DNA of 23,216 nucleotides from positions 1 through 23,216 of IMG/VR virus record IMGVR_UViG_3300031703_000056, one strand, 5' to 3'. The DNA is from a virus. Positions 1-16,784 of this stretch are shown piece after piece; positions within the stretch are counted from its first letter, which is position 1, and each line of letters begins with the position of its first letter. The notes below the pieces were generated by a model. It saw only the letters and a program-made list of their open reading frames with translations, had not been told where the DNA came from and searched no databases. The translations under genes were made by a program, and so were the position numbers.

Positions 1-2428
1 ATTCTTCGGTTTCCGTTGTTGATAACTTGTTAATAAGTCCTGATATTTCTCTATCAATTTTATCTTCTTTGGATTTTGCTTCTTGGAAATTAGCCCATTC
101 TTTTTCATATGGAACTAAAGAATCAATGGATAATGTTATTTCAAGGTGTTGTTGGTTAAATTCATGTAAGTGAGATTCACCCTCTTTTATGTTGGAATCT
201 ACCTTTGCCTTCTGTTCTCTAATTGTTTGTGAGTTCTCCATACAAACATCACACTCTTCATCATACTTGTGAGAATCTAAGTGTTCTTTCCTTTCATACA
301 AAGAATCTAATTTAATTTTAGTCTTTTCAATATCAGATTGTAAAGTTCGTTGGGTTACCTTATTTTCCTTTAATTTGGTAATACCATCTTCTAAATCCTC
401 CTCATCGAATTTATCAAGAATTTCATCAAGAGTAATTTGTAACTCCTCTCTATGTGTAATTCTACCTTGAATGGAATTTTTAGATTCTTTTAAATCGTTT
501 TGTTTATTAGAAAGTAGTTTTCTTCTTTTTTCTAATTCTTCAATAGAAACACCACTATCTGCATTTAACTTAACAATTTTTTCATTTAATTTGATTATTT
601 CTTTGTTAAGTTTTTCTTCTTCTGCCTTAGCAACATCTTGTTGAATATCTAAAAGCTTATATTCTGATTTCTTTTCTTTTAATTCAATTGCAATATCTGC
701 TAATTTCTGAGTAAAATCATCTTGTTTAAATTTTCTAATTAATGAAGCATTATCTCTATTTTCATCACTTGCTTGTTGATATAGTTTATCAAAAATATCT
801 ACTCCAATAAACTGTGATAGAACTTCTTTTCGTTCACTTTGAGATTTATCAATAAATAATGCATTATTTCCTTGTAAGGAAAGTGTAGTTAAAACAAAAT
901 CTTCAAACTTACCTAAATACCTTTCTATCTCTTTATTTGTATCTTTTCGTTGTTCTCCGTTTAATGATTGAATAACACCACCATCTTCTTTCCAAAAGTT
1001 TACATCTACCTTTACCGATGTTCCTTTCCTAACATATTTAGCAGTTCTTTCAATAAAATAATCAACACCATCAATCTCAAAGTTAAATTTACAATGGAAT
1101 GTATTCTTACGATTGTTTAAGATGTTCTTAGAAACATTTGTACGAGAAGTCTTATCATATATACAAAATGATAATGCATCGAACAGAGAGGATTTACCAG
1201 AGGCATTAGGAGCGAAGATACCAACGATACCTCGAGCTCTATCGAATCTAATTAAATTATCTTCTCCATATGAAAACATATTAGAAAATTGAAAATCTTT
1301 CGGTGTCCATAGAATATTTTCTGCTATCTTAGAATCATCTATTAAACCATTCATTTGTTTGTTTATATCTGTTATCTGATTCAATTCACCATCTCCTAAC
1401 AAATATCTTCTTTCTAAGTAATCTCGTATTAATTGGTTCTGAAATGTTTCTTCTTTAACATTACCAACTATGTTTTTATTTAGTTTACTATCCTGTTTAA
1501 GTTGTCCCATTGTATCAGTTCTTGTAACTGTTACTTCTGCAACCTTAAATATTTTCTTTAATTCTGTAATACGAAGTTTCATTTCTGCTCCTCCTGTATT
1601 TGTAAATCGTAATCTTAATCTTGGATTCTTTGGAAGTTTAGTACCAACTTCTTCATATACCCATTGTGGTATTTTACCATCAACTACATCAACTGTAAGG
1701 AATCCGTAATCATTATGTATATGATGCTCGGTAAATGTTCTTGTAGGAATATCCCAAAGTAGATACCCATGGTTCTCTAACATCTCCCCATGATTCTGTT
1801 GAACCATAGAACCTGCATAAGCAATGTGCTCATAACCAGGACCGAATGTTTGTCTTTTATGAATATCACCCAACATAGCCATGTCGAATCCATCGAACAT
1901 ATCCACTTGGAATGAGTTAGAGGAAACTGTATATCCAATATCTGTTTGAGCTTTATTTACTGGTCCATGAAAAAGACAGATTGTGTTTTCACCTTCAACT
2001 GTATTTCCCTTAGGCCAGTTTTCCTTGTCATCTAATATAGAATAGACACAGAAAGTAAGGTTATAGATATGATAAACACCAGTATCACGAAGATAATGAA
2101 TTCTATCATTTGCAAGATTTTCGATAATAGGTGTGAGTACATCAAGTCTATGCGAATTATTTAAGTTACAATCATGGTTTCCTGTGATTACCACAGTTTC
2201 TCTTAACTTTGCACACTCAGTAAGAAACCAAGATATTTCATGAATTAACTCAGGACTCATCTCTGTTTTAGCATGAGCAATATCTCCTGCAAGATATATG
2301 AGGGAATCCTCTATCTTATCTTCTTTAACTTGTTTTAAGAATTTTTTGAATACCAATCTGTATTCTTTGTGCCTTTGTAGATTTCTAATGTGTAAATCTG
2401 CAAGGTGGTAAACTTTATTTATAATCAT
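1..2428 (-). CDS. 47-46: Fused gp47-gp46 (Mre11/SbcD nuclease + Rad50/SbcC ATPase), C-terminus beyond window
   Basis: One reading frame runs without a stop from an ATG at 2428 to the left edge, 809 codons, and continues outside. I checked the frame triplet by triplet. Residues 1 to about 300 carry the Mre11/SbcD phosphodiesterase motifs: D11-x-H13, G48-D49, G83-N-H-D86, H154 and G187-D-I-H190. Residues 330-372 look like the helical capping segment. From about W374 a Rad50/SbcC ATPase begins, with a P-loop A406-P-N-A-S-G-K-S413, a Q-loop near Q519, a long coiled coil, and a zinc hook C726-D-V-C729. The second coiled-coil arm and the Walker B lobe must lie beyond the window. In T4, gp47 (about 339 residues) and gp46 (about 560) are separate proteins that resect DNA ends for recombination-dependent replication; here they are one chain. 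The start codon overlaps the stop of the upstream glycosyltransferase-like gene as ATGA, suggesting translational coupling. Family identity is very secure; the fusion is read directly from the sequence. Confidence 0.93.
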   Translation of the reverse strand, partial: MIINKVYHLADLHIRNLQRHKEYRLVFKKFLKQVKEDKIEDSLIYLAGDIAHAKTEMSPELIHEISWFLTECAKLRETVVITGNHDCNLNNSHRLDVLTPIIENLANDRIHYLRDTGVYHIYNLTFCVYSILDDKENWPKGNTVEGENTICLFHGPVNKAQTDIGYTVSSNSFQVDMFDGFDMAMLGDIHKRQTFGPGYEHIAYAGSMVQQNHGEMLENHGYLLWDIPTRTFTEHHIHNDYGFLTVDVVDGKIPQWVYEEVGTKLPKNPRLRLRFTNTGGAEMKLRITELKKIFKVAEVTVTRTDTMGQLKQDSKLNKNIVGNVKEETFQNQLIRDYLERRYLLGDGELNQITDINKQMNGLIDDSKIAENILWTPKDFQFSNMFSYGEDNLIRFDRARGIVGIFAPNASGKSSLFDALSFCIYDKTSRTNVSKNILNNRKNTFHCKFNFEIDGVDYFIERTAKYVRKGTSVKVDVNFWKEDGGVIQSLNGEQRKDTNKEIERYLGKFEDFVLTTLSLQGNNALFIDKSQSERKEVLSQFIGVDIFDKLYQQASDENRDNASLIRKFKQDDFTQKLADIAIELKEKKSEYKLLDIQQDVAKAEEEKLNKEIIKLNEKIVKLNADSGVSIEELEKRRKLLSNKQNDLKESKNSIQGRITHREELQITLDEILDKFDEEDLEDGITKLKENKVTQRTLQSDIEKTKIKLDSLYERKEHLDSHKYDEECDVCMENSQTIREQKAKVDSNIKEGESHLHEFNQQHLEITLSIDSLVPYEKEWANFQEAKSKEDKIDREISGLINKLSTTETEE

Positions 2429-3561
2429 ATATACTCTTTATATGGGGTAGGTTTGTAATTTATTCTATTGTAATAAAACTTTTGTTTCATCATAATCTTA
2501 TAATTATCTTCAATTTTGTGTGAATTATTTATATAGTAATCTCTTAATTCTAAATTAGTCATTTTATTTAAAATATCTAAATTTGATTTATACTGATTCA
2601 ATACATCTTTAAAAGTTTCTTTAGGAGTTATATCAAATAAAGAATCTGCTAGCCAAAATCCTAAACTTTTAAGATACTGATTACTTCTAGTACCATTAAG
2701 AATTAATGGTATATTAAAAGATAAAAACGGATTCCAAGTTTTTTCACTAAATTGAATTTCATTATGAGGTGTTGATGGGTTTGTTTCTAAAATACAACTA
2801 ACATAACTATTCATACAATATGGAAGTGGAGGTAAATCAGGATTAACTGATCCTTCACCAGACTGTTCTAGTGTGGTATCTAATATAGTAGGTATGTTCT
2901 CTTGTTTCCATTTTAATAATCTATCACTTAATGTATTATCATTATATGTTGAACAGAATGCACTATAAGCTAAATAAGAATCTTTATCCAAACCAATATT
3001 GTGAACATATTTGAATATTTCAAATCTTTCAGCTTTATCCACTCCTACTATAAGATTTATTTTCTTTTCTCTTATGTTGTTCATAAATGGCATTAATATT
3101 TCTGATGTACTTTTGTAAAAAGAAGTTTCGTTGGCTCTATATCTATAATAATTTAAGTTTAAATTATTTTCGTTATCATTCCACATAAACTTATTAGAAA
3201 ATATAGTATAATGTTCAGTATCTTCGTAATTACGACTACAATCATCATCAAAAATCACCAATTTTATTTTATATTTGTTTGATAATTTAATTAAAATTTT
3301 ATTTAACTGGCCAGGTATATCTGTTGGTAAATACTTTATATCAAAAATAATAGTATCATTTATATTTGGAGAAATATCAGATATATGTTTTTCCAATAAA
3401 CTTGGATACGGCGGTTCTTTATCTTTATACTTTGCTCTTTCAATCATATCCCAATCATCTGATGTAAAATATGAAACATCTGTATCTGAATGAAAATTTA
3501 TTAAATTATACCAAGGGGTATAAGAACCCTTCTTTATATGATGCTTTATTATATGAATCAT
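2425..3561 (-). CDS. Glycosyltransferase-like protein
   Basis: A 378-residue protein with no signal peptide or membrane segment. Its best clue is the C-terminal half. A hydrophobic strand ending in L-E-T (about 252-260) precedes the acceptor-style motif S-E-K-T-W-N-P (272-278), then a strand F-N-I-P-L-I-L-N-G (282-290), and then L-G-F (300-302). This order resembles the C-terminal nucleotide-sugar-binding half of GT-B fucosyltransferase/exostosin-like enzymes, and similar segments occur in many marine phage proteins. An acidic I-F-D-D-D patch lies at 104-107. The likely role is transfer of a sugar to a host surface glycan, a virion protein or DNA; the substrate cannot be read from sequence. 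It sits between the primase and the nuclease/ATPase gene with ATGA overlaps on both sides, so it looks like cargo fitted into a replication operon. The family call is by motif only. Confidence 0.6.
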   Translation of the reverse strand: MIHIIKHHIKKGSYTPWYNLINFHSDTDVSYFTSDDWDMIERAKYKDKEPPYPSLLEKHISDISPNINDTIIFDIKYLPTDIPGQLNKILIKLSNKYKIKLVIFDDDCSRNYEDTEHYTIFSNKFMWNDNENNLNLNYYRYRANETSFYKSTSEILMPFMNNIREKKINLIVGVDKAERFEIFKYVHNIGLDKDSYLAYSAFCSTYNDNTLSDRLLKWKQENIPTILDTTLEQSGEGSVNPDLPPLPYCMNSYVSCILETNPSTPHNEIQFSEKTWNPFLSFNIPLILNGTRSNQYLKSLGFWLADSLFDITPKETFKDVLNQYKSNLDILNKMTNLELRDYYINNSHKIEDNYKIMMKQKFYYNRINYKPTPYKEYI

Positions 3562-4502
3562 AAACCTTTTAATTTTTGTGATATTATATCACCGAATCCT
3601 GTTTTCTTAGATTCTTTTAATTTATTATTTACTTCTGTGAATCCCATATCAGATGCATCTTTATCTGTGGGTTTAATGTTTTTTGTATCAATTCCTTGAT
3701 TTTGAAATTGCATAGTATAACGTAATGCCTGTCCTTGAGCATCTTCATCTAAAAATATGTTTATATTTTTTACTTCATTTTTAAATATAGCTTCATTTAA
3801 TTTGGTAGGAATGAACTTACCCAATATTGGTATAGAGTTTCGTTTAACTGCCATTGCATCAAATACACCTTCTACTAGTGTAATTGGTTCATCCCAATTT
3901 ATTTGATTTTCAAACATTATAACATTTTTCGAAACTGGCGGATTTTTATATTTAAATTTTTCTTCAACAAATACAGACCTCGCGATGAAGTAATTGAGTC
4001 TATTGTTAGAATCATAAGAAGGAATAATAATACGACCGGAGTAATGACCAGAAGTACAATAACCAATATTATATCGTGTAATATCTTCTTTAGTAAGATT
4101 ACGAGATTTTGCATAATCTATTACCTTTCTGTACAAAGGATTTACTTTTCCTTTAGGTACTTTTAATAATGATTGAAACTCATTAGGTAACCTTAACTCT
4201 ACCTTTTCATCTTCGGTATCATTTGAATAAACTATGTAATCATCACCATAGACTTCATAAATCTTTTTTAATTTATGATTATCTACATGAAGTCTTTTTA
4301 ATAACCTTTGTATTCGTTTTCCTTTCGCATCACATACCCAACAATGCCATTGTTGTGTTTTTAAGTTAATCTGTAACTTTTTCTTGTGGTGATGGCAAAA
4401 AGGACAATAGTGAGCCTGTTCATCGTTTTTCATTGATGTACCAACCCCCAAGATATCATCCAATATGTTTATAACTGATTGTTTCTCATGGTGTGAGAGC
4501 AT
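3558..4502 (-). CDS. DNA primase (CHC2 zinc finger + TOPRIM, T4 gp61-like)
   Basis: A 314-residue primase that would make RNA primers on the lagging strand, normally together with a replicative helicase (not in this window). The N-terminus has a CHC2-type zinc ribbon, C33-P-F-C36 and C54-W-V-C57. The middle has the R-I-I-I-P strand (157-161) usual just before the catalytic core. The TOPRIM metal-binding motifs are V-E211-G and L-D252-E-D254, followed by K-D-A-S-D-M-G (281-287), a variant of the KDPSD motif. The length is close to T4 gp61 (342 residues) and there is no helicase domain. The gene starts after a 33-base gap holding a one-mismatch copy of the recurrent TATATTTATA element, and its stop overlaps the next start as ATGA. 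A gp61-like assignment is favoured over a DnaG-type primase because of size and neighbours. Confidence 0.9.
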   Translation of the reverse strand: MLSHHEKQSVINILDDILGVGTSMKNDEQAHYCPFCHHHKKKLQINLKTQQWHCWVCDAKGKRIQRLLKRLHVDNHKLKKIYEVYGDDYIVYSNDTEDEKVELRLPNEFQSLLKVPKGKVNPLYRKVIDYAKSRNLTKEDITRYNIGYCTSGHYSGRIIIPSYDSNNRLNYFIARSVFVEEKFKYKNPPVSKNVIMFENQINWDEPITLVEGVFDAMAVKRNSIPILGKFIPTKLNEAIFKNEVKNINIFLDEDAQGQALRYTMQFQNQGIDTKNIKPTDKDASDMGFTEVNNKLKESKKTGFGDIISQKLKGL

Positions 4503-4520
4503 ATTTTATCTTTTAATATA

Positions 4521-4530
4521 TGTAAATATA
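4521..4530 (-). promoter_or_regulatory. Promoter-like element, one mismatch (TATATTTACA)
   Basis: On the coding strand this reads TATATTTACA, one base off the exact 10-mer found in four other gaps. It lies 18 bases upstream of the primase ATG, in the only gap of the replication block. Its position fits a -10-type element that restarts transcription for primase, glycosyltransferase and nuclease/ATPase. Assignment is by recurrence and position only. Confidence 0.4.
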
Positions 4531-4535
4531 CGAAA

Positions 4536-5036
4536 TTATTCTGTAATTTCCAAGTCTTTTCTAAAAAACTTTCCTAAAAGATTATCATTTAGTGATAATT
4601 CATCCGCTAATACATTATGTGAGAACTGTTCTTGTAATTCATAATAGGTTAATGCCTTCTTTCCTTTACAAAACTTAAGTATTTCTAACTTTAATGTATC
4701 GTTTATTTCTCCTCTTGGTTCTTGTTCCAATGCCATTACATTTTCATGAAACCATAGTTGTACTGTTGGATTTGAGGAACGATAATCATGCCATTTAGAT
4801 TCTTTTTGAACCATTTCATATCGTTTGATTCTTTTATCTGTTAATTTAGCTATTTCTTTTTTGCCAAATTTTCTTTTTCTAATAGAAACTACTTGTTTTT
4901 TACCAATGTAGTATTCACCAGTTTTTCCATTAGTTATTTTATATATAAAACCAAATGTACCCTCAGGCATATCTGATAATTCTGTTATACATCTACCTTG
5001 GTAAGTCCATGTCATAGTTAAAAATCTTGAAATCAT
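4536..5036 (-). CDS. GIY-YIG nuclease-like protein
   Basis: A 166-residue protein whose front part matches the GIY-YIG endonuclease fold: G-F-I-Y-K-I-T-N (29-36) and E-Y-Y-I-G-K-K (41-47). Basic residues follow (R53, K54, R55), with K-E-S-K-W at 78-82. The rest resembles small phage GIY-YIG proteins whose C-terminal part holds an E-I-L helix (118-120) and Y-E-L-Q-E-Q-F (132-138). Members of the family cut DNA as homing or repair nucleases, but many phage versions are uncharacterised. It could be a free-standing homing endonuclease at the join between the structural and replication blocks. The ATG at 5036 is preceded by AAAGG at good spacing and overlaps the sulfotransferase gene by 44 bases. 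A second in-frame ATG at 5015 (residue 8) is also plausible, because relatives tend to start near the W-x-Y segment. Confidence 0.68.
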   Translation of the reverse strand: MISRFLTMTWTYQGRCITELSDMPEGTFGFIYKITNGKTGEYYIGKKQVVSIRKRKFGKKEIAKLTDKRIKRYEMVQKESKWHDYRSSNPTVQLWFHENVMALEQEPRGEINDTLKLEILKFCKGKKALTYYELQEQFSHNVLADELSLNDNLLGKFFRKDLEITE

Positions 5037-5571
5037 CTTTATACCTTTCTTTGACCCAATCTATCATCCATTCTTCTGTAAAGAAGTTTTTATAGTAATT
5101 TTCTTGATTTAAAGTTGGATGTATATCGTAAATTGGATTACGGTTAAGATGCGGTATATCTGAAGTGTGATTTAATTTATTTAATATTGTTTTCATATCA
5201 TTATGATAATTTTCATAATGGGCAACAAATGATATTTGTCTTTTTTCTGTTTTTCCCGCATCGGTATAATAACTTTGGGGGAGAATCCATTGATGAAATG
5301 GATTTGATTTTTCTAAAAACTCACCAAATGAATAGTTGTGTGTTTTTTTTCTAATCTCATGATTGTAAGCTGAGGCAATTCGTGTGTATGGATTTCTTAC
5401 TATTGTAAAAATATAATAATCGGATACATCATCTACCCATCTAATTGAATCATGACCTGTAATTTGCTGTGTACCATCTATTCCCCTTATTATAGAAGAC
5501 AATGATGTTCCTCCGGTTTTAGGTATATGAATAAATGCCCATTTTTCAGAACTATTTATCAGTAAACTCAA
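4993..5571 (-). CDS. Sulfotransferase family protein (PAPS-dependent), TTG start
   Basis: A 192-residue protein with both hallmark sites of PAPS-dependent sulfotransferases. The 5'-phosphosulfate loop is F-I-H-I-P-K-T-G-G-T-S (13-23), and the 3'-phosphate site is I-V-R-N-P-Y-T-R-I-A-S (57-67). The IPKTGGTS form is typical of the heparan-sulfate 2-O-sulfotransferase-like group and of bacterial and phage relatives. It should move sulfate from PAPS to a hydroxyl, probably on a glycan. No signal peptide or membrane segment is seen, so it would act in the host cytoplasm. There is no ATG before the catalytic site: the first internal Met is near residue 125. The start must therefore be non-ATG, and TTG at 5571 is the best candidate. 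It lies in the same frame as the preceding 61-codon gene, separated only by that gene's TAA and three sense codons. Confidence 0.85.
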   Translation of the reverse strand: MSLLINSSEKWAFIHIPKTGGTSLSSIIRGIDGTQQITGHDSIRWVDDVSDYYIFTIVRNPYTRIASAYNHEIRKKTHNYSFGEFLEKSNPFHQWILPQSYYTDAGKTEKRQISFVAHYENYHNDMKTILNKLNHTSDIPHLNRNPIYDIHPTLNQENYYKNFFTEEWMIDWVKERYKDDFKIFNYDMDLPR

Positions 5572-5580
5572 GTTGTTCGT

Positions 5581-5766
5581 TTAGCGTTCTACTGAATCAG
5601 AATATTTCTTCTCAATCAATTTTCCACCTCTAGCGGTAGCTAAAGCTTTATCGTCTTTATGCAATTTGTTAATCATGTTAGCTGATGTAGGTGTTTTATC
5701 CTTACTACTTCCACTTTTAAGTTTTGCAAAATCTGAACCTTTGTATAAGTCTTGTATTGATGCCAT
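5581..5766 (-). CDS. Small basic protein of unknown function
   Basis: A 61-codon gene that I do not recognise. The product is Lys- and Ser-rich and hydrophilic, with no membrane segment or cysteines, and a Gly/Lys-rich end (R-G-G-K-L-I-E-K-K). It has an ATG at 5766, lies 16 bases downstream of the 70-residue gene, and sits just upstream of the sulfotransferase in the same reading frame. Its TAA stop is separated from the sulfotransferase TTG by only three sense codons. That layout suggests the two are translated together, by reinitiation or possibly low-level readthrough. It is supported as a gene by its fit in the tight array and by the lack of any competing frame. Confidence 0.6.
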   Translation of the reverse strand: MASIQDLYKGSDFAKLKSGSSKDKTPTSANMINKLHKDDKALATARGGKLIEKKYSDSVER

Positions 5767-5782
5767 ATCGTTTTCTTTTTAT

Positions 5783-5995
5783 TTACTCTTCTGATTCAAA
5801 CGAACCAATTCTTTTTATTACAAACTCTCCTTCAGAGATGTTATCGAATGTAGTTGTATCATCATCATATTCGTCATATTGTAATACGTTTCCTAAATCA
5901 TTATCTTCTGCATAGGATTGAACTTCTTCAAGTGTTAATTCAATATTATCCGTTACTACTGTTTTGTCGTGTGCTAATAATTGATATTTTGCCAT
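5783..5995 (-). CDS. Small acidic protein of unknown function
   Basis: A 70-residue, strongly acidic protein that I do not recognise. Two Asp/Glu-rich stretches stand out, around residues 30-48 (including Y-D-E-Y-D-D-D) and at the C-terminus (E-S-E-E). The N-terminus, M-A-K-Y-Q-L-L, starts like a short beta strand. It has no cysteines and no membrane segment. A purine-rich AAAGGA lies nine bases upstream of the ATG, and an exact TATATTTATA element lies 49 bases upstream. It is therefore probably the first gene of the transcript running into the 61-residue gene, the sulfotransferase and the nuclease-like gene. The role is unknown; an acidic DNA-mimic or assembly factor is possible but has no direct support. 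Confidence 0.65.
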   Translation of the reverse strand: MAKYQLLAHDKTVVTDNIELTLEEVQSYAEDNDLGNVLQYDEYDDDTTTFDNISEGEFVIKRIGSFESEE

Positions 5996-6044
5996 AATAT
6001 ATTTTCCTTTGTTTAAGTTGGGTTAGTTTTAGAATAACCTCTAG

Positions 6045-6054
6045 TATAAATATA
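6045..6054 (-). promoter_or_regulatory. Candidate promoter element TATATTTATA
   Basis: An exact copy of the 10-mer shared by all four gaps longer than 50 bases. It lies in the 84-base gap before the 70-residue gene, 49 bases upstream of its ATG, the longest spacing of the set. It would start transcription of the small genes, sulfotransferase and GIY-YIG gene. No clear -35-type element precedes it. Confidence 0.5.
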
Positions 6055-6079
6055 GTTAATCGCAATAAACCGATAAATA

Positions 6080-7237
6080 CTATGTATCGATTCTTACGAT
6101 AAAGTTCATATCGTAATCTGGTAAATTCTTTATTGGTTGTGGCAATTTAGCAACTGCAATCATTTCGCCAGTATTATCATATATACCAATTGTTGATATA
6201 TATGGAGCTAAATAAGAACCAGTTGGGTCTATTGAAGCAGATGTATCATAATCATCCCATGAACCACTTATTGATGGATTTACAGAACCACTATAATATT
6301 TTGTTTGAGTTATATCATCTACAACATTAATCTTTTTAGTTCCAGCTGGGAAAGAATTTAGTTCTCCTGTTATTTCTGTTTCATAAGAACCACTCATTTT
6401 TACATCTATTGCAGAGGGGTTTTGAGAATAATTAAATTCTCCTGCCTTAGATGTAACTAAAATCTCCATCTCATTAATAGTTTTAGTAGATTTGAAATCC
6501 ATTACATAACTACTAAATTGTGTAATATCATCATTGAATATTACCAATCCTTCAGAATACATTATATTACCAAATTTTAACTGGTCTAAATCTACTCCTG
6601 CAAAATTAAATGCAGTTAATGTTGATATTCTTCCAGCTTCTAAATCAATTCTTACTATGTGAATAGTATCAGTATCACCACCGAAAGTCATTTTTGCTAA
6701 ACCTGTTTCCAAATCAATTGCAGTTTGGCCAGCTGATGTCCATAGTGTTCCTATAAATTCACCATCATCGGTATCAGACATTATTATTTCTCCAGTTTCT
6801 AAATCAAAAGATACAAGAGTATATTCTGGGTTTAATGATGTTATATTTCCCTTACCATCATCTGAAAATTCAACCTCGTTAGTTAAATCTTTAAGAATCA
6901 AAGAAGTTGGTTGAATTCTTTCTCCATACTTCTTCTGAGGTAATGCTATAACATATCCAGTTGTACCCAATCTTCTTTCAAAAGCATCTCCAATAGTTTC
7001 CATAGTACCATGTAAGGTAAATGGATTTCCTATATCAGAATAATATTTTGATTTTAAAGATTTAAATAAAGGATATGTATATAATCCTTCTTGTTGAGTT
7101 GCAGTATTTTTATCAAACTCTCTATCTGTTGTAAAGGAACCAGAAATTAATGGGTACTCAGTACTATTAACTGTCCAAGTTTTATTAACTTGAAAAGCTC
7201 TTTTAGAAATATTCGATTTATTTAATGTCTTTAACAT
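6080..7237 (-). CDS. Probable virion structural protein, paralogous C-terminal module
   Basis: A 385-residue beta-rich protein. The N-terminal half contains Y-G-E-R-I-Q-P-T-S (104-112) and D-D-G-K-G-N (126-131), a pattern I associate with phage tail or baseplate proteins. The middle holds three short D-L-E-[TA]-G repeats at 145, 175 and 198. From about residue 265 it matches the end of the next upstream gene's product. Both have E-F-N-[YF]-S-[QN]-N-P, then I-S-T-I-G-I-Y-D-N versus I-T-T-V-G-L-M-N-D, then I-A-V-A-K-x-x-Q-P-I, and both end in a [IV]-x-[IV]-x-[IL]-D strand. In this copy the module is split by roughly 60 extra residues rich in Gly and Ser. The gene follows a terminator and has its own promoter-like element, so it is probably a separate transcript. 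It may be a tail-tip or baseplate decoration protein; the exact role is unknown. Confidence 0.7.
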   Translation of the reverse strand: MLKTLNKSNISKRAFQVNKTWTVNSTEYPLISGSFTTDREFDKNTATQQEGLYTYPLFKSLKSKYYSDIGNPFTLHGTMETIGDAFERRLGTTGYVIALPQKKYGERIQPTSLILKDLTNEVEFSDDGKGNITSLNPEYTLVSFDLETGEIIMSDTDDGEFIGTLWTSAGQTAIDLETGLAKMTFGGDTDTIHIVRIDLEAGRISTLTAFNFAGVDLDQLKFGNIMYSEGLVIFNDDITQFSSYVMDFKSTKTINEMEILVTSKAGEFNYSQNPSAIDVKMSGSYETEITGELNSFPAGTKKINVVDDITQTKYYSGSVNPSISGSWDDYDTSASIDPTGSYLAPYISTIGIYDNTGEMIAVAKLPQPIKNLPDYDMNFIVRIDT

Positions 7238-7255
7238 ATAGATTTAACTTCTCTA

Positions 7256-7265
7256 TATAAATATA
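7256..7265 (-). promoter_or_regulatory. Candidate promoter element TATATTTATA
   Basis: An exact copy of the shared 10-mer, 18 bases upstream of the ATG at 7237 and only nine bases downstream of the intrinsic terminator. A terminator followed directly by this element and then a gene is what a transcription restart would look like. This is the best single argument that the motif is a promoter. Confidence 0.55.
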
Positions 7266-7274
7266 CTAAAACAA

Positions 7275-7300
7275 AAAACCCCACTTATGAGTGAGGTTTT
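7275..7300 (-). terminator. Intrinsic terminator between two paralogous structural genes
   Basis: On the coding strand AAAACCTCACT pairs with AGTGGGGTTTT around a CATA loop. This gives an 11-bp stem with one G-U pair, followed by a T-rich run. It lies 22 bases past the stop of the 408-residue gene. The plus strand also ends in eight T's after the stem, so the structure could work in both directions. Confidence 0.88.
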
Positions 7301-7322
7301 TTTTAATTTAGGGGAAATATAA

Positions 7323-8549
7323 TTAGAAATCTAATTTTACTTTTATTAATACTTCCTTATCGTATGATTTTGGAATTGGTTGTGATGTTTTAGCCACCGC
7401 AATCGTTTCGTTTGAATCATTCATCAATCCAACAGTTGTAATAAATGTCTTAGGGTCTTTTTCAAATGTTGATTCTGCGAATTTGTTATCTGAACCAGTT
7501 ACATAAGTAGGATTGTTAGAGAAGTTAAATTCTCTATTTGTTGCTCTTATAAAGTAATGTGATGTAGAAACATTTTCTGTTCTTCTTGCTTGGAAATCAC
7601 CACCACCTTTAATTGCGTTTTGTAGAAGATAATGATTTTGTCCTTCATATGCAGTTCCTGCATAAATAGTTGCACCTAAGTTAGAACCACTATCAATAGA
7701 TGTTCCAATTAATTGGTGAATTGCAGTTGGGTTAAGTACAATAAATCCTTGGTCTGGATAGAATGAACCAAATCCTCTACCATTAGCATCTTTTAATGTA
7801 CTTACTGTAGCTTCATTTTCAGTTCCTAAGTTTAATGAACCACTTGCAACATTAAATACTCTACCAGCTTTTCCAACTGTATCTGAGAATTTCTTACCAC
7901 TATCATCAATAAATGTATGTGTTCCAGTAGAACCACTTAAAACCATTGACCAGTTTCCTGCATCCATTTTCTCTTTGTAACGAGCACGAGCTACATTGAT
8001 TACATAGATGTCATCTGAATCATGAGTTCCAGCTGCGGATGATGAATAGAATGTAAATTTATCATCATTCGGTTCTAACAATATTGATTTGTATTGTGCA
8101 TAGGTTGCTTTACTTGCTAATGTTGATGAATCTGAAGTTGTTAAATCAACTGAACCACTTGCGTATTTGTGTCCATATGCAGCTGCATATTGTACAACGG
8201 CTGAAGTATCAGTTGATGGATTCTTATCATATACATTAACATAGTAGTTTCTACTAGCTGCTGTTTGTGTAGATGAAGTAAAGAAAGTACTCATACTTCC
8301 AGTATCACCACTCCAAAGACCAGTTGTTACAACTTCTATCTTTCCATTTACTTGGTCAAATTCACCAAACCTTTTATAGATACCATTAGAAAGTGAACCT
8401 CCGGTTGCACCTAATTTATCTCCACCTGTAAGGTATTGGTTAATTATTGTCGTTATTTGTTCGGATGTTAAATTACCTTGGTTGGCATCTAAATAGTTTG
8501 CCAACTCTTGTGATAAATTTACTCCCGCTTGTCCTTTTATTTGTGCCAT
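7323..8549 (-). CDS. Probable virion structural protein (408 residues)
   Basis: A 408-residue Ser/Thr/Gly-rich protein with no signal peptide or membrane segment. It contains Y-D-K-N-P-S-T-D-T-S-A (108-118), Y-V-I-N-V-A-R-A-R-Y-K-E near the middle and G-N-W-S-M-V-L-S-G just after. I recognise this pattern from conserved structural proteins of uncultured marine phages, but I cannot name a subunit. The last 75 or so residues form the module shared with the product of the next gene downstream. GGAG six bases before the ATG is the clearest Shine-Dalgarno site of the region. The gene follows the 209-residue gene by 20 bases and ends at the strong terminator, so it is the last gene of its transcript. 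It may be a baseplate or tail-fibre-network protein. Confidence 0.72.
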   Translation of the reverse strand: MAQIKGQAGVNLSQELANYLDANQGNLTSEQITTIINQYLTGGDKLGATGGSLSNGIYKRFGEFDQVNGKIEVVTTGLWSGDTGSMSTFFTSSTQTAASRNYYVNVYDKNPSTDTSAVVQYAAAYGHKYASGSVDLTTSDSSTLASKATYAQYKSILLEPNDDKFTFYSSSAAGTHDSDDIYVINVARARYKEKMDAGNWSMVLSGSTGTHTFIDDSGKKFSDTVGKAGRVFNVASGSLNLGTENEATVSTLKDANGRGFGSFYPDQGFIVLNPTAIHQLIGTSIDSGSNLGATIYAGTAYEGQNHYLLQNAIKGGGDFQARRTENVSTSHYFIRATNREFNFSNNPTYVTGSDNKFAESTFEKDPKTFITTVGLMNDSNETIAVAKTSQPIPKSYDKEVLIKVKLDF

Positions 8550-9278: not shown

Positions 9279-12200
9279 TTAGTCAACTTCTAATATAGGT
9301 TCACCACTTCCTCTTCCACTATCAGAAACTCGTAAAGTATTCGGATTAGTTGTAAATGTTTGAACAGGAGAACCACCATCTAATGTAGTTAATGATGTTT
9401 GTTTTGAACCAAGTGAAAATGAATTTTCAAGGCCGGTAGTTATATCACCCACATTTCTGTAATGATAAGGAACATAACCATCTAATGGTTCTACCTTAGT
9501 TACATTACCAGCTAAAAGTGAACCACTATCTGCAAAATTTCTAAAGTTTACTCTTTTACGAGTAACTGTTGTTGCAACAAAATGTCTTCCTTTTGAAGAA
9601 TCGTTTGAATCTATATTCTCAGGAACATCTACCGAAAAAGTTTCTGTAATAATATCTACTCTTTTTCTTTCTTTTATAAAATTATTATTTTTATCTAATC
9701 TTGTTATGATACTATGTCCATTTTCTGCATATAAACCGAAACCAGCTACTGTTAGTGATTCAGGATTGTTTCCAACTTGTTCAAAAATATCAGAAGTAAA
9801 TTCACCTTGTGCAGAAGAACTAAATTCAGCATCTATCACAATGGATATACCTCCCATATTAGAACCACTATTTACAGTTATAAATCCAAATTGATTTATA
9901 TCGTTTTCTGCATTTATTGTACTGTTATATGAATTCTTACTACTTACTAAATTTGGTGATATAGAAGATGATATAAATCCACTATAGTCATTCTTTGTAG
10001 AACTTAATACAGTATGTTGTGAAGCGGTTAATATACCTACTTTACCATCATTGGTTGAGTTCACACTAATATCTTCTTGAGTATCTATTGAAGAATCATG
10101 TTGATGTGATGATGCAATTGTAGGTCTTTTTTCTACTTTACTTCTTTCAAGTATATGTGGTTCAATTAATAATCCACTTGATACTTTTGCTCTTGCTGGT
10201 ACTAAAGATTCTAATACATCAAATAATGATTTATCTATATACCTTACTAATTGAATATATTCAGATAAATTTAAATTATATCTATCGAAGTAATAATTTC
10301 TTAATGAAGCTAAATCCTTGTACTCAGATTTAAAATCATCTGATGGGTCACCAATATAATTATCAATATTAAATGAACCAAGAGATTTCATAATATCTAA
10401 ATTGATTTCTTTTATAGGTGAGAAAAATAATCCTAACTTATCACTATCTAATGGTGATTGGTCAAATGATTTTTTAGTAGCCCTACTTCTATATGATAAA
10501 TCTGTTACTTTAGTTTGTGTTTCGAATCTTACTTTATTACCAAAACTTATACCAGTTGATGGAACTTCTGCAGTTACATCTCTATCATATATTTTATATT
10601 GATGTGGGTAATCTGAAATAGATGGTAGATTAGAAGCTGTTGCAAATGTGTCATATGTTCTGTTTACAGATACATTTTTTATAAATGGGTCACCACTACT
10701 ATGTCTGTTTTTTGGATGTTCAAAATCTAATCTAAACATTAAATCTTCAGTAGATGATGAAACATGATTACCATTTATTGCCTCTGGCATTAATGTGTGG
10801 TTATTAATAACTGATTCACTTAATGGAGCAGCCCATAATCTAAACTCATCAATTGAACCTGTTAAAGTAGAACCACCTATTTTTAATTCTTGTCCACTAC
10901 CCCAACCATTAGAACCAGAAGGTACTTTAATAGTAGTTGATATTGTGTTTCTAATTCTACCTTGGAATCCTTCTTTTAAGTAAACATCTATCGTATCATC
11001 AACTCCTACACTACTTCCTGTTGTTCTGTTTACAACTAATTGTGAGTACTCATCGTTAAAGAATGCAACTTTTTCTGTTGAAGATGAAATAAATTCACTT
11101 CCACTTAATATATTGAATGTTAATTTTCCAAGTGAACCAGATTCAGGATAATCTATATCAAGATGCCATCCCGAACCACTAATAATATTTTGGTCTTGTT
11201 TTTGGTCTGTATTTACCCTAACTTCTACTGAATTAGGATATTTTCCATTATGAGATTTCCAAGGAACAATAATAGAAGAAGCTCCACTTATGTTAAGAGA
11301 AGAAGTTCTATCTTCAAATGTAAATGTAGTAGTTGCATCTTTATTTGCATTTTGTGGGCCACCGAACTCCATTATAGTTAGTAAAGAATTTGGAATACCA
11401 TAACAACTTAAAGCTGCAGATATTGCTCTTCGTGTACCTTTATGTTTTTGTAGGTATGGTAAGTTATTAAGTAATCTCCTCCAAACTTCATTCTGTCTAT
11501 CCTTACCACTCATTGTAGATACAGATGTACCATCAGAATGTTTACCGAATGCATATTCCCAAAGTAATTGAGATTGTGCACCCATATCAGCATCCCAACC
11601 AAGGGATTCTAACATATGATAAATAACTTTATCGTTAATTCCGTTTTCGAACTTATGTTCTAATTTTTTATTTTTATTTATACCATCAATATGTGTCCAT
11701 AATATATCGAAGTGTTGACCAATCATATCAAAGAATAAAGTAAATGATTGACCTTCTTGGTCATTTTGAATATGAGATGGTAAGTTACTAACTAATCTTG
11801 ATGTATTGGTTTCATCATATGATTTAGCACTTAAGATGGTTGTATTATACCAAGTAGTTACTGATGAATCGGTAGATGCGGATAATGCCGAACCTCCAGC
11901 ACCAGGCCATGTTATACCACTAAGTGATGAACTCGTATATAATAATTTTTCAAATGCATCAAATCCTTTTTTAGTATCATTGATTTTACTAAGTGTTCTA
12001 TTTGCTTCGTTTCTTACTGCAACTGAACTTGAAGCAGCTCCACTTATTGTACCAGTTCCTCCTCCAAAGTCTATTGAAGAACCAGATACCAATCCATTAT
12101 ATCTAGTTTCGTATGATTGAATTAATTTAACTTTGTAAATAAAGTTTTCAGTTCTTTCTTCTGCAGATGAGTATTTTACAAATGCATCCCAATTAATTGA

Positions 12201-14729
12201 AGGAGTTCCACTTGTTTGGAAAAATGTTCCTGTACCAGTAGTTTCTACTAATGAAGTAGATGCCGTTACATAAGAAATATTTAAATTTTCTAATGAGAAT
12301 TCGGAAGATGATACAAATTGATTAACAACATCAGATGATGATTGAGAACCACTTGATATTAAATCATCTAATATTTGATATCCAATTACATCATTAACTT
12401 CTAATGCGAAGTTTGGAGTAAGTGGAGTACAGTTCTTAGAAATATCATCTATAATTGTTATCTGGTCAATTAAAGGTACTGCCTGTAATTTAGATAACCA
12501 AATTCTATCATTTGGATTAATATTTTGAGGAAGAGGTTCGTATAATTTTAATATTAGTGATTTTTCTTCGTTTACCTTTACTCTTGTATTGTTTGTTAAA
12601 TCATCTTCAAATGTAGATAATGTTTCTGTATCAATTCCCCATGTTGCAACTAATTTATTAACACCCTCACCTAAATGTAAGTAATGTGTTAAGAAAGGAG
12701 ATATTGAATCTTGGAATACAGATTTATCAAAGTTTTCTATGAATGCTTTTTTAATATCAGATATAACTTGACCTCTTCTAAGAGTTAAATCACCAGCATC
12801 AAATGAAATACTTATTTGTTCTGTTTTACCTGCAGTTACTGCATCCCCTTCTGAGTTATATGGTATTAATAATAAATCAAATTGTATTACTCCATTAACT
12901 TCTGTTGGTTTGATATTTGCAGATGATAGTTTTTTTAATACATCACCAACATTAAATGAAGTAAGGCCTGCACCAGGAATTTTTCCTAATGATGTACTTG
13001 ATGTTACCTTTCCTGCATAAACTTGAACATAGTTTGTGTTTATAGATTGCCAACTAATATCAAATGGTACATTGTATCCTTTGAAGTCTGCACCAACAAT
13101 GTTTTGTGGGTAATTTATATTTGTAATATCAGGACCAGGAATAAAAGCTTTACTTTCAACCGTTACTGATATCTTTTCTATCGAACTACTTCCAGCAGCC
13201 TTTGAAATTCCTTGTAAGTAAATTATATAGTTTCCTACTCCATTGGAAAAATCTGATTTACTTAAAACTAAACTACCATTTAAATCTATTTTTCTTTTTG
13301 TTTTACCAAGAGTATAAATTACTTCTTCTGAATTTACACTACTATATGGTATCTTAATAGAAGATGGATTAGATATGTTAAGTTTAAAATTTTTAATAGA
13401 TGCCTTTACACTTGGAGCAAGTGGTGAAGCTTCACGAGGCATTTTACTAGCATTAACTATAATGTTTGTTTGACCTGATGATAAATCAAGGTCAAATCCT
13501 CCTGAAGTTATTTTTTTATTACTTCTCTGGTCTGGTGTATTGTATTCGTATGTTACTGTATGTGTAAAATCTGAAATACCAACTGATGTAAATGATATAC
13601 TTGATTTTTCTCCATTAACTGTTGGAGTGTATGTTAAATCAATATCATCCTCATCTAAAAGATATCCACTTTTTCCCCATGATGTTTCGTACTTAATAAT
13701 ATCATCAGATGATACAAAACTTTCTACATTAAGTTTTATTGGAACATCAGGTGCAGGGTCTTCTACAATTTTAACAGATTCTAAATTAAATTTTAAATTA
13801 ACAAATTGAGATTTATTTATAGTCTCTGTTATATTATTTATTTGATTTGGAACATCAACAAATTCCCCATTCTTTTCTAATTTAAATTCATAGTAAGAAT
13901 ATTGAATTGTACTAACTGGTCTTGGTTTTCTAGGGCCCTTTCGTCTTACAGGTGTAGTATATCCTAGATTTGCTGCAGCGAATCCACCTGTACCTCTTCC
14001 TAAATTATCGTTAAATTCAATACCACCATATCCTCTATCTTCAATTCCAAAATTACTAATTAAACCATTTCCTCTAATTGGTATTCTATCTTCAATAACA
14101 ACATCATCAAAATCTATAAAATCATCATCTGCTATTACTAAAGGTGTTACTGTTTTAGTAAGAACTTTTTCTACAGCATATAATTTATATTCTTCATTTG
14201 ATACAAATCCATCCTTAACTACTTTGAATATTTGTGGTTGTAGTAATTCTTTTCCTGTAAATTGGTAAACCTTTGTTGGTTGGTTTAAAGTATCTTTTCC
14301 ATTTAAAATAATACTTCCCCCATTTGTTGAAGTAACTGAAACTGATATGCTTCTACTTTCTGATAAAGGTTTTGAAGGTGGTGTTGGGTATCTACAAGTA
14401 GATTGTTTATTTATGGTTGCTAATGGATTGTAATTTATAGCCGTTCTATCAGTACAACCACTAACTACTCGTATTGGTGGTTTTGGTCTTGGTATTGGTT
14501 CTGATAGTTCTTTTATAGGAATAATATCTCCAGCTTCATCAATAAATCCTTGATCGGAAACTCTTTCTCCAGATTTTGTTGTTGTAACAGGACTTATCGC
14601 CCCTCCTGCTGCAATTATTGCATTATCAGAATATCCTCCTCCACTAAGAATGGGTGCGCCAAATGATTCAACTACTTCATCACTAAAGTTTGCATCACTT
14701 GGTAATCCTCTTGTTAATCCTCTTGCCAT
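9279..14729 (-). CDS. Giant tail/baseplate protein with KGT (tail protein I-like) and LamG-like domains
   Basis: An 1816-residue protein, by far the largest gene here. The N-terminal 120 residues are Gly/Pro-rich and hold one cysteine repeat, G-C-T-D-R-T-A-I-N-Y-N-P (91-102), closing at C112. Residues of about 120-650 look like successive Ig-like beta domains. Near 1080-1100, W-R-R-L-L-N-N-L-P followed by K-H-K-G-T-R-R-A-I resembles the conserved helical segment of P2 tail protein I-type baseplate proteins. Residues of about 1140-1310 look like a LamG/concanavalin-type lectin domain, ending with G-S-I-D-E-F-R-L-W near 1288. Lower-complexity Ser/Asn-rich sequence follows to the C-terminus. It probably links the baseplate to a glycan-binding or fibre function. 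There is no Shine-Dalgarno site at the ATG, but no later Met is a sensible start. Confidence 0.75.
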   Translation of the reverse strand: MARGLTRGLPSDANFSDEVVESFGAPILSGGGYSDNAIIAAGGAISPVTTTKSGERVSDQGFIDEAGDIIPIKELSEPIPRPKPPIRVVSGCTDRTAINYNPLATINKQSTCRYPTPPSKPLSESRSISVSVTSTNGGSIILNGKDTLNQPTKVYQFTGKELLQPQIFKVVKDGFVSNEEYKLYAVEKVLTKTVTPLVIADDDFIDFDDVVIEDRIPIRGNGLISNFGIEDRGYGGIEFNDNLGRGTGGFAAANLGYTTPVRRKGPRKPRPVSTIQYSYYEFKLEKNGEFVDVPNQINNITETINKSQFVNLKFNLESVKIVEDPAPDVPIKLNVESFVSSDDIIKYETSWGKSGYLLDEDDIDLTYTPTVNGEKSSISFTSVGISDFTHTVTYEYNTPDQRSNKKITSGGFDLDLSSGQTNIIVNASKMPREASPLAPSVKASIKNFKLNISNPSSIKIPYSSVNSEEVIYTLGKTKRKIDLNGSLVLSKSDFSNGVGNYIIYLQGISKAAGSSSIEKISVTVESKAFIPGPDITNINYPQNIVGADFKGYNVPFDISWQSINTNYVQVYAGKVTSSTSLGKIPGAGLTSFNVGDVLKKLSSANIKPTEVNGVIQFDLLLIPYNSEGDAVTAGKTEQISISFDAGDLTLRRGQVISDIKKAFIENFDKSVFQDSISPFLTHYLHLGEGVNKLVATWGIDTETLSTFEDDLTNNTRVKVNEEKSLILKLYEPLPQNINPNDRIWLSKLQAVPLIDQITIIDDISKNCTPLTPNFALEVNDVIGYQILDDLISSGSQSSSDVVNQFVSSSEFSLENLNISYVTASTSLVETTGTGTFFQTSGTPSINWDAFVKYSSAEERTENFIYKVKLIQSYETRYNGLVSGSSIDFGGGTGTISGAASSSVAVRNEANRTLSKINDTKKGFDAFEKLLYTSSSLSGITWPGAGGSALSASTDSSVTTWYNTTILSAKSYDETNTSRLVSNLPSHIQNDQEGQSFTLFFDMIGQHFDILWTHIDGINKNKKLEHKFENGINDKVIYHMLESLGWDADMGAQSQLLWEYAFGKHSDGTSVSTMSGKDRQNEVWRRLLNNLPYLQKHKGTRRAISAALSCYGIPNSLLTIMEFGGPQNANKDATTTFTFEDRTSSLNISGASSIIVPWKSHNGKYPNSVEVRVNTDQKQDQNIISGSGWHLDIDYPESGSLGKLTFNILSGSEFISSSTEKVAFFNDEYSQLVVNRTTGSSVGVDDTIDVYLKEGFQGRIRNTISTTIKVPSGSNGWGSGQELKIGGSTLTGSIDEFRLWAAPLSESVINNHTLMPEAINGNHVSSSTEDLMFRLDFEHPKNRHSSGDPFIKNVSVNRTYDTFATASNLPSISDYPHQYKIYDRDVTAEVPSTGISFGNKVRFETQTKVTDLSYRSRATKKSFDQSPLDSDKLGLFFSPIKEINLDIMKSLGSFNIDNYIGDPSDDFKSEYKDLASLRNYYFDRYNLNLSEYIQLVRYIDKSLFDVLESLVPARAKVSSGLLIEPHILERSKVEKRPTIASSHQHDSSIDTQEDISVNSTNDGKVGILTASQHTVLSSTKNDYSGFISSSISPNLVSSKNSYNSTINAENDINQFGFITVNSGSNMGGISIVIDAEFSSSAQGEFTSDIFEQVGNNPESLTVAGFGLYAENGHSIITRLDKNNNFIKERKRVDIITETFSVDVPENIDSNDSSKGRHFVATTVTRKRVNFRNFADSGSLLAGNVTKVEPLDGYVPYHYRNVGDITTGLENSFSLGSKQTSLTTLDGGSPVQTFTTNPNTLRVSDSGRGSGEPILEVD

Positions 14730-14756: not shown

Positions 14757-16784
14757 CTATAACTCTCTTGGTGTCTTTGGTCTTCTTAATACTACATCTC
14801 CTCCGCCGATTCCTCCAGTCAAACTAATAGCTGTATTTTTAACTACATCAACATAATCTGCTACTTTTCCTTCTTCTATTAAGATGGCACTATAATTATC
14901 ATTTCCTAATGGTTGTGAGACTCCTCCATATGAACCTCCTCCTCTAATAATTGGAATTTGTTTTGGTCTTGGTTTTGGTGGTGGTGGAGATGGTTTAACT
15001 CTAATAGGAGATTTAGTATCTGGTGGCATCACACTTACACAAGATCCCATATCTGTTACTATCACACCAGCCTGTTTTGATACTGTACCTGCTTGTGCAC
15101 AAATTGTTGTTGTATCACCAGGAAGTAATTGACTTGTTGTTTTTGTATTTCCAATAGCATCTTTATATGTTACTGATAGTGGTATTGGAGCTACTTCATT
15201 ATAAAATGGATTAGGAGCTCTCATTCCTATTCCATAATTATTATTATATGTGTCAGAACCAAATTGATTTTGGCCGTAATATTCTGCAATTGCCTTGTAA
15301 TCAGGAGCTGGGTTTACTGTTTGTGGTTTAACATTATTGTTTTTAATATTATACATCTTAGTCGATACCACATTTACAGGTTTAGGAGTTTCTCTTACAT
15401 CTCCTTTAAATTTAAATTGACCCTTATCGTGAGTAATAGTAAATGAATCAAATTCTTTACCTATAATACTCTTGTTAGTTTTTTGTTCTTTATATTTAAT
15501 GTTTGCAGTTGCAGACCAAACATAATAGTTTTTAGTGACAGTTTCTATAACGACTATTTTATCTTTTACAATAATCTCGTATTTACAAGTTCCATTATCA
15601 ACAGTTGCATTTGGATTGTAATTAAGTGCGGTTATATCTGTACATCCTTTGATTGTCGGTTCTTCTTTTTCTTCTTCCTTTTCAACCTCTATCTCTTCAA
15701 CTACTTTTGGATATGTACAACTACCATCATTATCCTGTGCCATTGGATTATAATTTTCAGCCTTAGGGTCTGTACAACCTCTTACTCTTGCATTTACTTT
15801 ATCAGGAACAGTTGAATTATATATTGAACTTGAAGTAGTTGATTTTAAAATTTGTTTAACTTTATCAAATGTAATTTGTTCTTCTTTACTTAATATATTA
15901 TCTACTTGTACATCTCTTTTTGGTAAATAAAAATCAATACAATTTATTAAAGATTGTTGAGCATCTCTTTCTAATTGTTCTATTGATAATTCAATACAAT
16001 CCTCGTCATCACTAAGTGGTTTACCAAAATTAATATCATTTATTTGCCAGTTTCTACGCTGAGAATAATATTCCATTGATTTTACAAACTTTGTTTTGAT
16101 TCTATTTAATAAGATTTCAAAACTTTCTATTTGGAATTCTTCTTTTATTAAGTTGATATAATCAATTCCATCTTGTTCTTTTCCTTTACAAAATAAAAAG
16201 TATTGAAGTATTTTTTCTAATTCTAATTTATCTATAAAAACATTAACATAATAAATTACATCATCTCTGAAGTTTTTCTTATCAAGAAATAAAGATAATC
16301 TTTTTTCTAAATCTTTATTTTCTCCCTTTGCTCTATTTGGTAGAATTCTAATTTCAGTTCGTGAAGGTGAAATTTCATGTATCCACATATCATCTCCTTC
16401 TTTTGCATCAGAACCAACTCTTCGATTTAAAAGAGTAACTTGTGTTTTAAATATTCCATTTGAATATCCAGCTTCTCTAATTAATTTTTCAATATCTACT
16501 ATAAATTCAGGAGTACCATCTTTCTTTTTGGTAAATTGATTATCAGATATTATAAAATACTCTTCAATGTTTGCATCATTAATATGAATATATCTTACTA
16601 ATTTTTCATCTTCACCTTGTGGTAGTTGATTTTCACTCGAATCAAATAATATAAATTCGATCATATCAGAACAACCTAACCCAAAGTTAGATTTAGATAT
16701 TTCTTTTTCAAATACCTTTCTATCATCAGAGTCAACCTTGTACCCTTTTCTATCGATTATATCTTTAAATCCTTTTATTGCCAT
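14757..16784 (-). CDS. Probable virion structural protein with two GCTD-NYNP cysteine repeats
   Basis: A 675-residue protein in three parts. The N-terminal part (to about residue 160) ends in W-I-H-E-I-S-P-S-R-T-E-I-R, a motif I associate with structural proteins of marine phages, and is followed by a helical region to about 330. The central part carries two cysteine repeats, G-C-T-D-P-K-A-E-N-Y-N-P (336-347) and G-C-T-D-I-T-A-L-N-Y-N-P (380-391), each closing with [SC/TC]-x-Y. They are joined by a run of Glu and Lys (about 360-372). The last part is beta-rich, then Pro-rich (P-P-P-P-K-P-R-P-K), then Gly-rich. The protein downstream carries the same repeat in its own Pro/Gly-rich N-terminus, so the two probably touch in the tail. 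The weak start context GGAAACTAAAATATT-ATG fits a poor Shine-Dalgarno phage. The role in the virion is inferred from position. Confidence 0.7.
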   Translation of the reverse strand: MAIKGFKDIIDRKGYKVDSDDRKVFEKEISKSNFGLGCSDMIEFILFDSSENQLPQGEDEKLVRYIHINDANIEEYFIISDNQFTKKKDGTPEFIVDIEKLIREAGYSNGIFKTQVTLLNRRVGSDAKEGDDMWIHEISPSRTEIRILPNRAKGENKDLEKRLSLFLDKKNFRDDVIYYVNVFIDKLELEKILQYFLFCKGKEQDGIDYINLIKEEFQIESFEILLNRIKTKFVKSMEYYSQRRNWQINDINFGKPLSDDEDCIELSIEQLERDAQQSLINCIDFYLPKRDVQVDNILSKEEQITFDKVKQILKSTTSSSIYNSTVPDKVNARVRGCTDPKAENYNPMAQDNDGSCTYPKVVEEIEVEKEEEKEEPTIKGCTDITALNYNPNATVDNGTCKYEIIVKDKIVVIETVTKNYYVWSATANIKYKEQKTNKSIIGKEFDSFTITHDKGQFKFKGDVRETPKPVNVVSTKMYNIKNNNVKPQTVNPAPDYKAIAEYYGQNQFGSDTYNNNYGIGMRAPNPFYNEVAPIPLSVTYKDAIGNTKTTSQLLPGDTTTICAQAGTVSKQAGVIVTDMGSCVSVMPPDTKSPIRVKPSPPPPKPRPKQIPIIRGGGSYGGVSQPLGNDNYSAILIEEGKVADYVDVVKNTAISLTGGIGGGDVVLRRPKTPREL

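Follow-up and report, generated by a model that had tools for sequence, protein, structure and literature searches.

A fused nuclease–ATPase gene at the contig end

The window analysed here, a 23,216-base IMG/VR virus record, is a single metagenomic contig whose minus strand carries a fused Mre11/SbcD–Rad50/SbcC gene (positions 2..2428), recognised from Pfam and PHROG families and from its relatives. The reading frame begins with an ATG at 2428 and runs to position 2 through 809 codons without a stop. It is still open where the contig stops, and the window therefore holds the N-terminal 809 of about 1052 codons and lacks the 3' end of the gene. The two halves of the product matched different families: Pfam Metallophos aligned with residues 5-191 (E 8.6e-7) and AAA_23 with residues 382-621 (E 7.8e-7), each exceeding its curated threshold, and PHROG 77 (SbcC-like) covered residues 285-806 (E 6e-30). 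When the PDB was searched by sequence, Rad50 chains matched the second half and Mre11/SbcD the first half, the latter weakly. The families, motifs and folds bear out the first-pass annotation, which had placed an Mre11-like nuclease and a Rad50-like ATPase in one chain and had correctly located the P-loop, Q-loop and CxxC within one stop-free frame of 809 codons.

All features of the gene lie on the minus strand. The calcineurin-type nuclease domain has an Mre11-like fold and occupies residues 1-265 (1634..2428). Its motifs, which vary little or not at all among 46 homologues, are D11-x-H13 (2398-2390), GDIAH at residues 48-52 (2287-2273), GNHD at residues 83-86 (2182-2171), H154 (1969-1967) and GDIH at residues 187-190 (1870-1859). 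The earlier statement that all nuclease motifs are there holds as far as their presence is concerned, but two metal-site positions depart from the textbook Mre11, GDxxD being replaced by GDIAH and GHxH by GDIH. The domain is followed by a capping region that extends to about residue 303 and by helices 327-341 and 346-361, which stand in place of the Rad50-binding helix-loop-helix (HLH) (1346..1633; AlphaFold2 secondary structure, with low confidence at 305-319). A linker of residues 362-372 (1313..1345), delimited in the same way, leads to the Rad50/SbcC N-lobe (residues 373-560, 749..1312, Pfam AAA_23). This lobe contains the P-loop GIFAPNASGKS at residues 403-413 (1222-1190), in which G411, K412 and S413 are invariant in the 46 homologues, and the equally invariant Q-loop residue Gln519 (874-872). 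Residues 561-809 (2..748), which form long helices in the model, comprise the first coiled-coil arm and the start of the second, together with the zinc-hook CxxC at residues 726-729 (253-242), whose cysteines C726 and C729 do not vary in the same set. Among the features of a Rad50/SbcC ATPase, Walker A and the Q-loop are found in the window, and the signature, Walker B and D-loop in complete relatives.

Complete relatives and conservation of the single frame

The full chain is represented by the protein of a relative designated L002, which is 94% identical to that of the window and has 1052 residues. It supplies the parts beyond the contig end, namely the signature SGMERF, the Walker B/D-loop NFLVIDEGFGTLD and the switch SHID. 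A Walker B motif and a stop codon, which the first-pass annotation had proposed to look for past the contig end, are both present in the complete relatives, the near ones extending from stop to stop over about 999-1088 codons. The gene product is a single uninterrupted polypeptide of about 1052 residues that unites the nuclease, the HLH-like region, a short linker, both ABC ATPase lobes, the coiled coil and the zinc hook. All of the 121 complete copies have SGMERF or SGMEKF as their signature, GDIH as the last nuclease motif, a motif II of the form GD(I/L/V)xH and the CxxC hook.

Since the sequence comes from one metagenomic contig, the end of which cuts the gene, two genes could have been joined artificially through a stop or frameshift lost during assembly or sequencing. 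The relatives speak strongly against such an event. The first scan of viral contigs kept 80 near relatives (51-97% identical), all 80 of which carry the gene in a single frame. The second scan, started from a divergent alignment, confirmed at least 583 relatives; 80 of these were kept, which are distant relatives 38-50% identical to the query, the protein of Microcystis phage Mel-JY01, and the frame is again single in 80 of 80. Thus, neither a stop or frameshift at the junction nor relatives with separate genes, the two outcomes that the first-pass annotation had set against a fusion, occur in any of the 160 related loci. Moreover, the GenBank record of the cultured phage Mel-JY01 also shows a single frame (1066 aa), and the dN/dS values of the window versus its relatives in segment 321-382 (HLH-like helices plus linker) were far below 1, ranging from 0.02 to 0.26 and mostly staying under 0.15 where computable. 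These ratios indicate that purifying selection runs through the junction. As 160 of 160 relatives are single-framed, the assembly artefact was rejected, and we regard it as having next to no probability. The fusion is maintained across hundreds of contigs of aquatic phages. Outside viruses, a scan of genome contigs confirmed no bacterial homologues, a result that is uninformative because only two, unspecific peptide patterns were used; a plasmid search returned matches to the ATPase half only and did not recover the published fusions of the C. kluyveri and Deferribacter plasmids.

Some individual copies deviate from the common layout. In one relative (L069, 6001-8994) about 55 residues are absent at the capping region (about 265-318) with the frame kept, which represents either a real deletion or a misassembly. 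In the 484-kb phage LR756508 (3950-8175) a separate ORF of 305 aa, whose product has a TnsA-like endonuclease domain, splits the fusion gene directly behind GDIHKRQ, and the fusion frame picks up again at FSGSLIQQ. This insertion looks like one of the homing type, an intron or an intein; a search of Rfam gave no intron match there. In addition, the third-position identity between the window and L002 was 50-72% over the first 240 codons and mostly 80-92% beyond them, and two other relatives (L006 and L012) displayed the opposite trend. These patterns suggest that lineages have recombined within the fusion gene, close to codon 240 (window 1634-2428 versus 2-1633).

The junction and the predicted structure

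The AlphaFold2 model was computed for the L002 protein from 46 aligned relatives, with the GenBank phage rows left out. Its mean pLDDT is 78 and its pTM 0.44, a low value that is expected because of the long coiled coil and the poorly modelled C-lobe. The nuclease core is succeeded in the model by the capping region, helices 327-341 and 346-361 in the HLH position, the linker 362-372 and, from residue 373, Rad50 beta-1. The junction defined by secondary structure (about 1345-1313) lies within the interval 1290-1450 given by the first-pass annotation. The modelled linker of about 11 residues, placed after the HLH-like helix pair and ahead of Rad50, can be compared with the T. maritima proteins, in which about 28 A separate the C-terminus of Mre11 from the N-terminus of Rad50 and a linker of 9-12 residues would suffice (PMC3175470). 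The predicted length fits this geometry, and the idea that the nuclease is tethered to the ATPase would be compatible with it.

The PDB fold matches included Mre11 and Rad50 of M. jannaschii, with target-normalised TM-scores of 0.75 (4tug_B) and 0.68 (5dny_D). Among viral proteins, the list was led by full-length giant-virus proteins of Tupanvirus (E 1.4e-66, 24% identity across 1306 alignment columns), Harvfovirus, Yasminevirus and Catovirus, and the proteins of Tenacibaculum phages pT24 and PTm1 stood lower. As the coiled coil dominates, TM-scores for the entire chain stay low (0.26-0.50), and the match therefore rests on the sequence-and-structure E-values.

A single frame could still yield two working proteins if an internal start or proteolysis released a free Rad50-like ATPase. 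The candidate start is M384 in the first strand of the ATPase (FSNMFSYG), which is an ATG in 57 of 57 complete near relatives. However, initiation at this codon would cost the ATPase its first beta strand, no other in-frame start is conserved in the linker, and a ribosome-binding-like sequence precedes M384 in only 6 of the 57, although this last test is weak because the gene's own start has no obvious site in 54 of 57. We consider the release of a free ATPase unlikely and retain the single chain as the working product.

Known fusions, predicted role and genomic setting

Fusions of Mre11 and Rad50 were reported in 2011 by Yoshida, Claverie and Ogata for Mimivirus R555 and a further twelve proteins, among them those of Bacillus phage 0305phi8-36, plasmids and eukaryotes (PMC3175470). 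The window fusion is a member of this kind and is not in itself new, contrary to the novelty implied by the first-pass annotation. The open-access literature searched yielded no later paper devoted to the Mre11/Rad50 fusion. In R555 the third Asp of GDxxD is replaced by His and the first His of GHxH by Asp (PMC3175470). Taking R555 from its published description, the phage protein shares with it the domain order, the short linker and both nuclease substitutions, and giant-virus proteins are its best full-length fold matches. However, R555 has 1351 residues versus about 1050 here, and the genes described here reside in tailed-phage contigs.

The fusion of Microcystis phage Mel-JY01 (WWT39521.1), whose host is cyanobacterial, shares 38% identity with the full-length L002 protein, and its gene occurs in the same order of GIY-YIG endonuclease, primase and fusion, but with a small ORF between primase and fusion instead of the 378-aa ORF that stands there in the window. 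It is annotated only as 'AAA domain containing protein'. Tenacibaculum phages PTm1 and pT24 likewise possess a fused nuclease and ATPase (about 1310 aa) with a zinc hook and the signature SGME, which groups with the family of the window in the tree, but alignment by fold gives 14-16% identity, the His of motif II is missing, and the protein is not confidently derived from the same fusion event. The Pfam Rad50 zinc hook was found in the PTm1 protein just below the cut-off. The 1318-aa fusion of PTm1, also a cultured phage, (3992-7948 of its locus) is annotated only as a metallo-phosphoesterase. T4 gp47/gp46 and E. coli SbcD/SbcC consist of the same two domains with presumably the same chemistry, but they are encoded by two genes and have SEGE/SGGE and GHxH where the fusion has SGME and GDIH. 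An SxGE signature and a GHxH nuclease motif were found in the split pairs of T4, SPO1, BSP38 and E. coli. The Asp in the last nuclease motif is nevertheless not unique to fusions, since GDLH occurs in the T5-like Vibrio phage PG07. With Asp in place of the first His of GHxH and Met in place of Gly in the signature, the activity of the fusion is not guaranteed.

The tree was built on the nuclease, N-lobe and C-lobe of 22 phage fusions and five split pairs (phage and E. coli). All 22 fusions fell on one side of a branch separating them from the split pairs (support 98/96), and several end branches were long. A single fusion origin for the main group appears likely from this tree, which contains only five split pairs; whether the same origin would extend to PTm1 and the 735-kb phage LR756501 is unsure. 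It is conceivable, though rather doubtful, that the tailed-phage and giant-virus fusions descend as a single ancient lineage that has a catalytic variant of its own (GDIH with Asp, SGME with Met), in other words a distinct and possibly tightly coupled enzyme and not merely two joined subunits.

The gene very probably specifies an Mre11–Rad50 (SbcD–SbcC) nuclease that the phage makes as a single chain and that is related to the Mimivirus R555 type. The fusion most likely dimerises into a self-contained MR complex that would resect phage DNA ends for recombination. From what is known of the MR complex, two chains would pair by way of their ATPase heads, their nuclease domains and/or their hooks and form the usual M2R2 assembly, the nuclease:ATPase ratio being fixed at 1:1 by construction, and ATP would control whether DNA ends reach the nuclease. 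The assembly could then resect and tether phage DNA ends, allowing a phage RecA-type recombinase to drive recombination-dependent replication and repair. The T4 proteins gp46/gp47 serve these two processes, and by analogy the fusion may play such a role in T4-like recombination.

The genomic setting was assessed in the window, in related loci and in 15 long records of 109-735 kb, which are not certified complete. The upstream neighbour in the window is a DnaG-like primase with a zinc ribbon and Toprim (3558..4502, minus strand; phrog_47, E 7.8e-46). A primase was found beside the fusion in 161 loci (almost all), including 80 of 80 distant ones. The next conserved neighbour is a GIY-YIG SegE-like endonuclease (4536..5036, minus strand; Pfam SegE_GIY-YIG, E 1.7e-18), and the succession of virion-type genes, SegE-like endonuclease, primase and fusion is widespread. 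RecA-like genes (phrog_97) occur in 11 of the 15 long records, with one member recognised by sequence. Small separate phosphoesterases of about 190-280 residues were observed in several of these records.

The fold search also returned SMC-type proteins of defence systems, Lamassu and JetABC among them, and the fusion might accordingly be read as a Lamassu-like nuclease–SMC device of defence or counter-defence. Mre11 and Rad50, however, fit the two halves more specifically in the same search, and the gene is conserved across the group and primase-linked. It is also the only recognisable MR-type complex and the only strong SbcC-type match in 14 of the 15 long records, other SbcC-type matches there being weak; LR756501 carries both the fusion and a separate SbcC-like gene. 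A defence device is thus very improbable, and a replication and repair enzyme remains our preferred reading.

In ocean scaffolds, phage primases were found to adjoin R555-like genes, and many of the abundant marine copies were inferred to be phage-borne (PMC3175470). Long contigs and cultured phages now confirm that these are phage genes. The labels 'AAA domain' and 'metallo-phosphoesterase' conceal a complete single-chain MR enzyme. A natural MR of fixed ratio would suit the study of ATPase–nuclease coupling, and the two family-wide variants, the nuclease Asp and the signature Met, merit biochemical attention.

Other genes of the window were also noted. Its gp25-like and other baseplate-wedge-like proteins mark it as a contractile-tailed phage. 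A Sulfotransferase-family gene (4993-5571; Pfam Sulfotransfer_2, E 4.1e-15), present in 47 relatives, lies between the virion genes and the SegE/primase pair. The 675- and 1816-aa proteins encoded at 14757-16784 and 9279-14729 contain repeats of the GCTD-x-x-A-x-NYNP-x-A-x-DGSC type and matched no Pfam or PHROG family. A clear Shine-Dalgarno sequence precedes few of the window genes, whose upstream regions are A/T-rich, a pattern that might point to a host among cyanobacteria or of Bacteroidota-like affinity.
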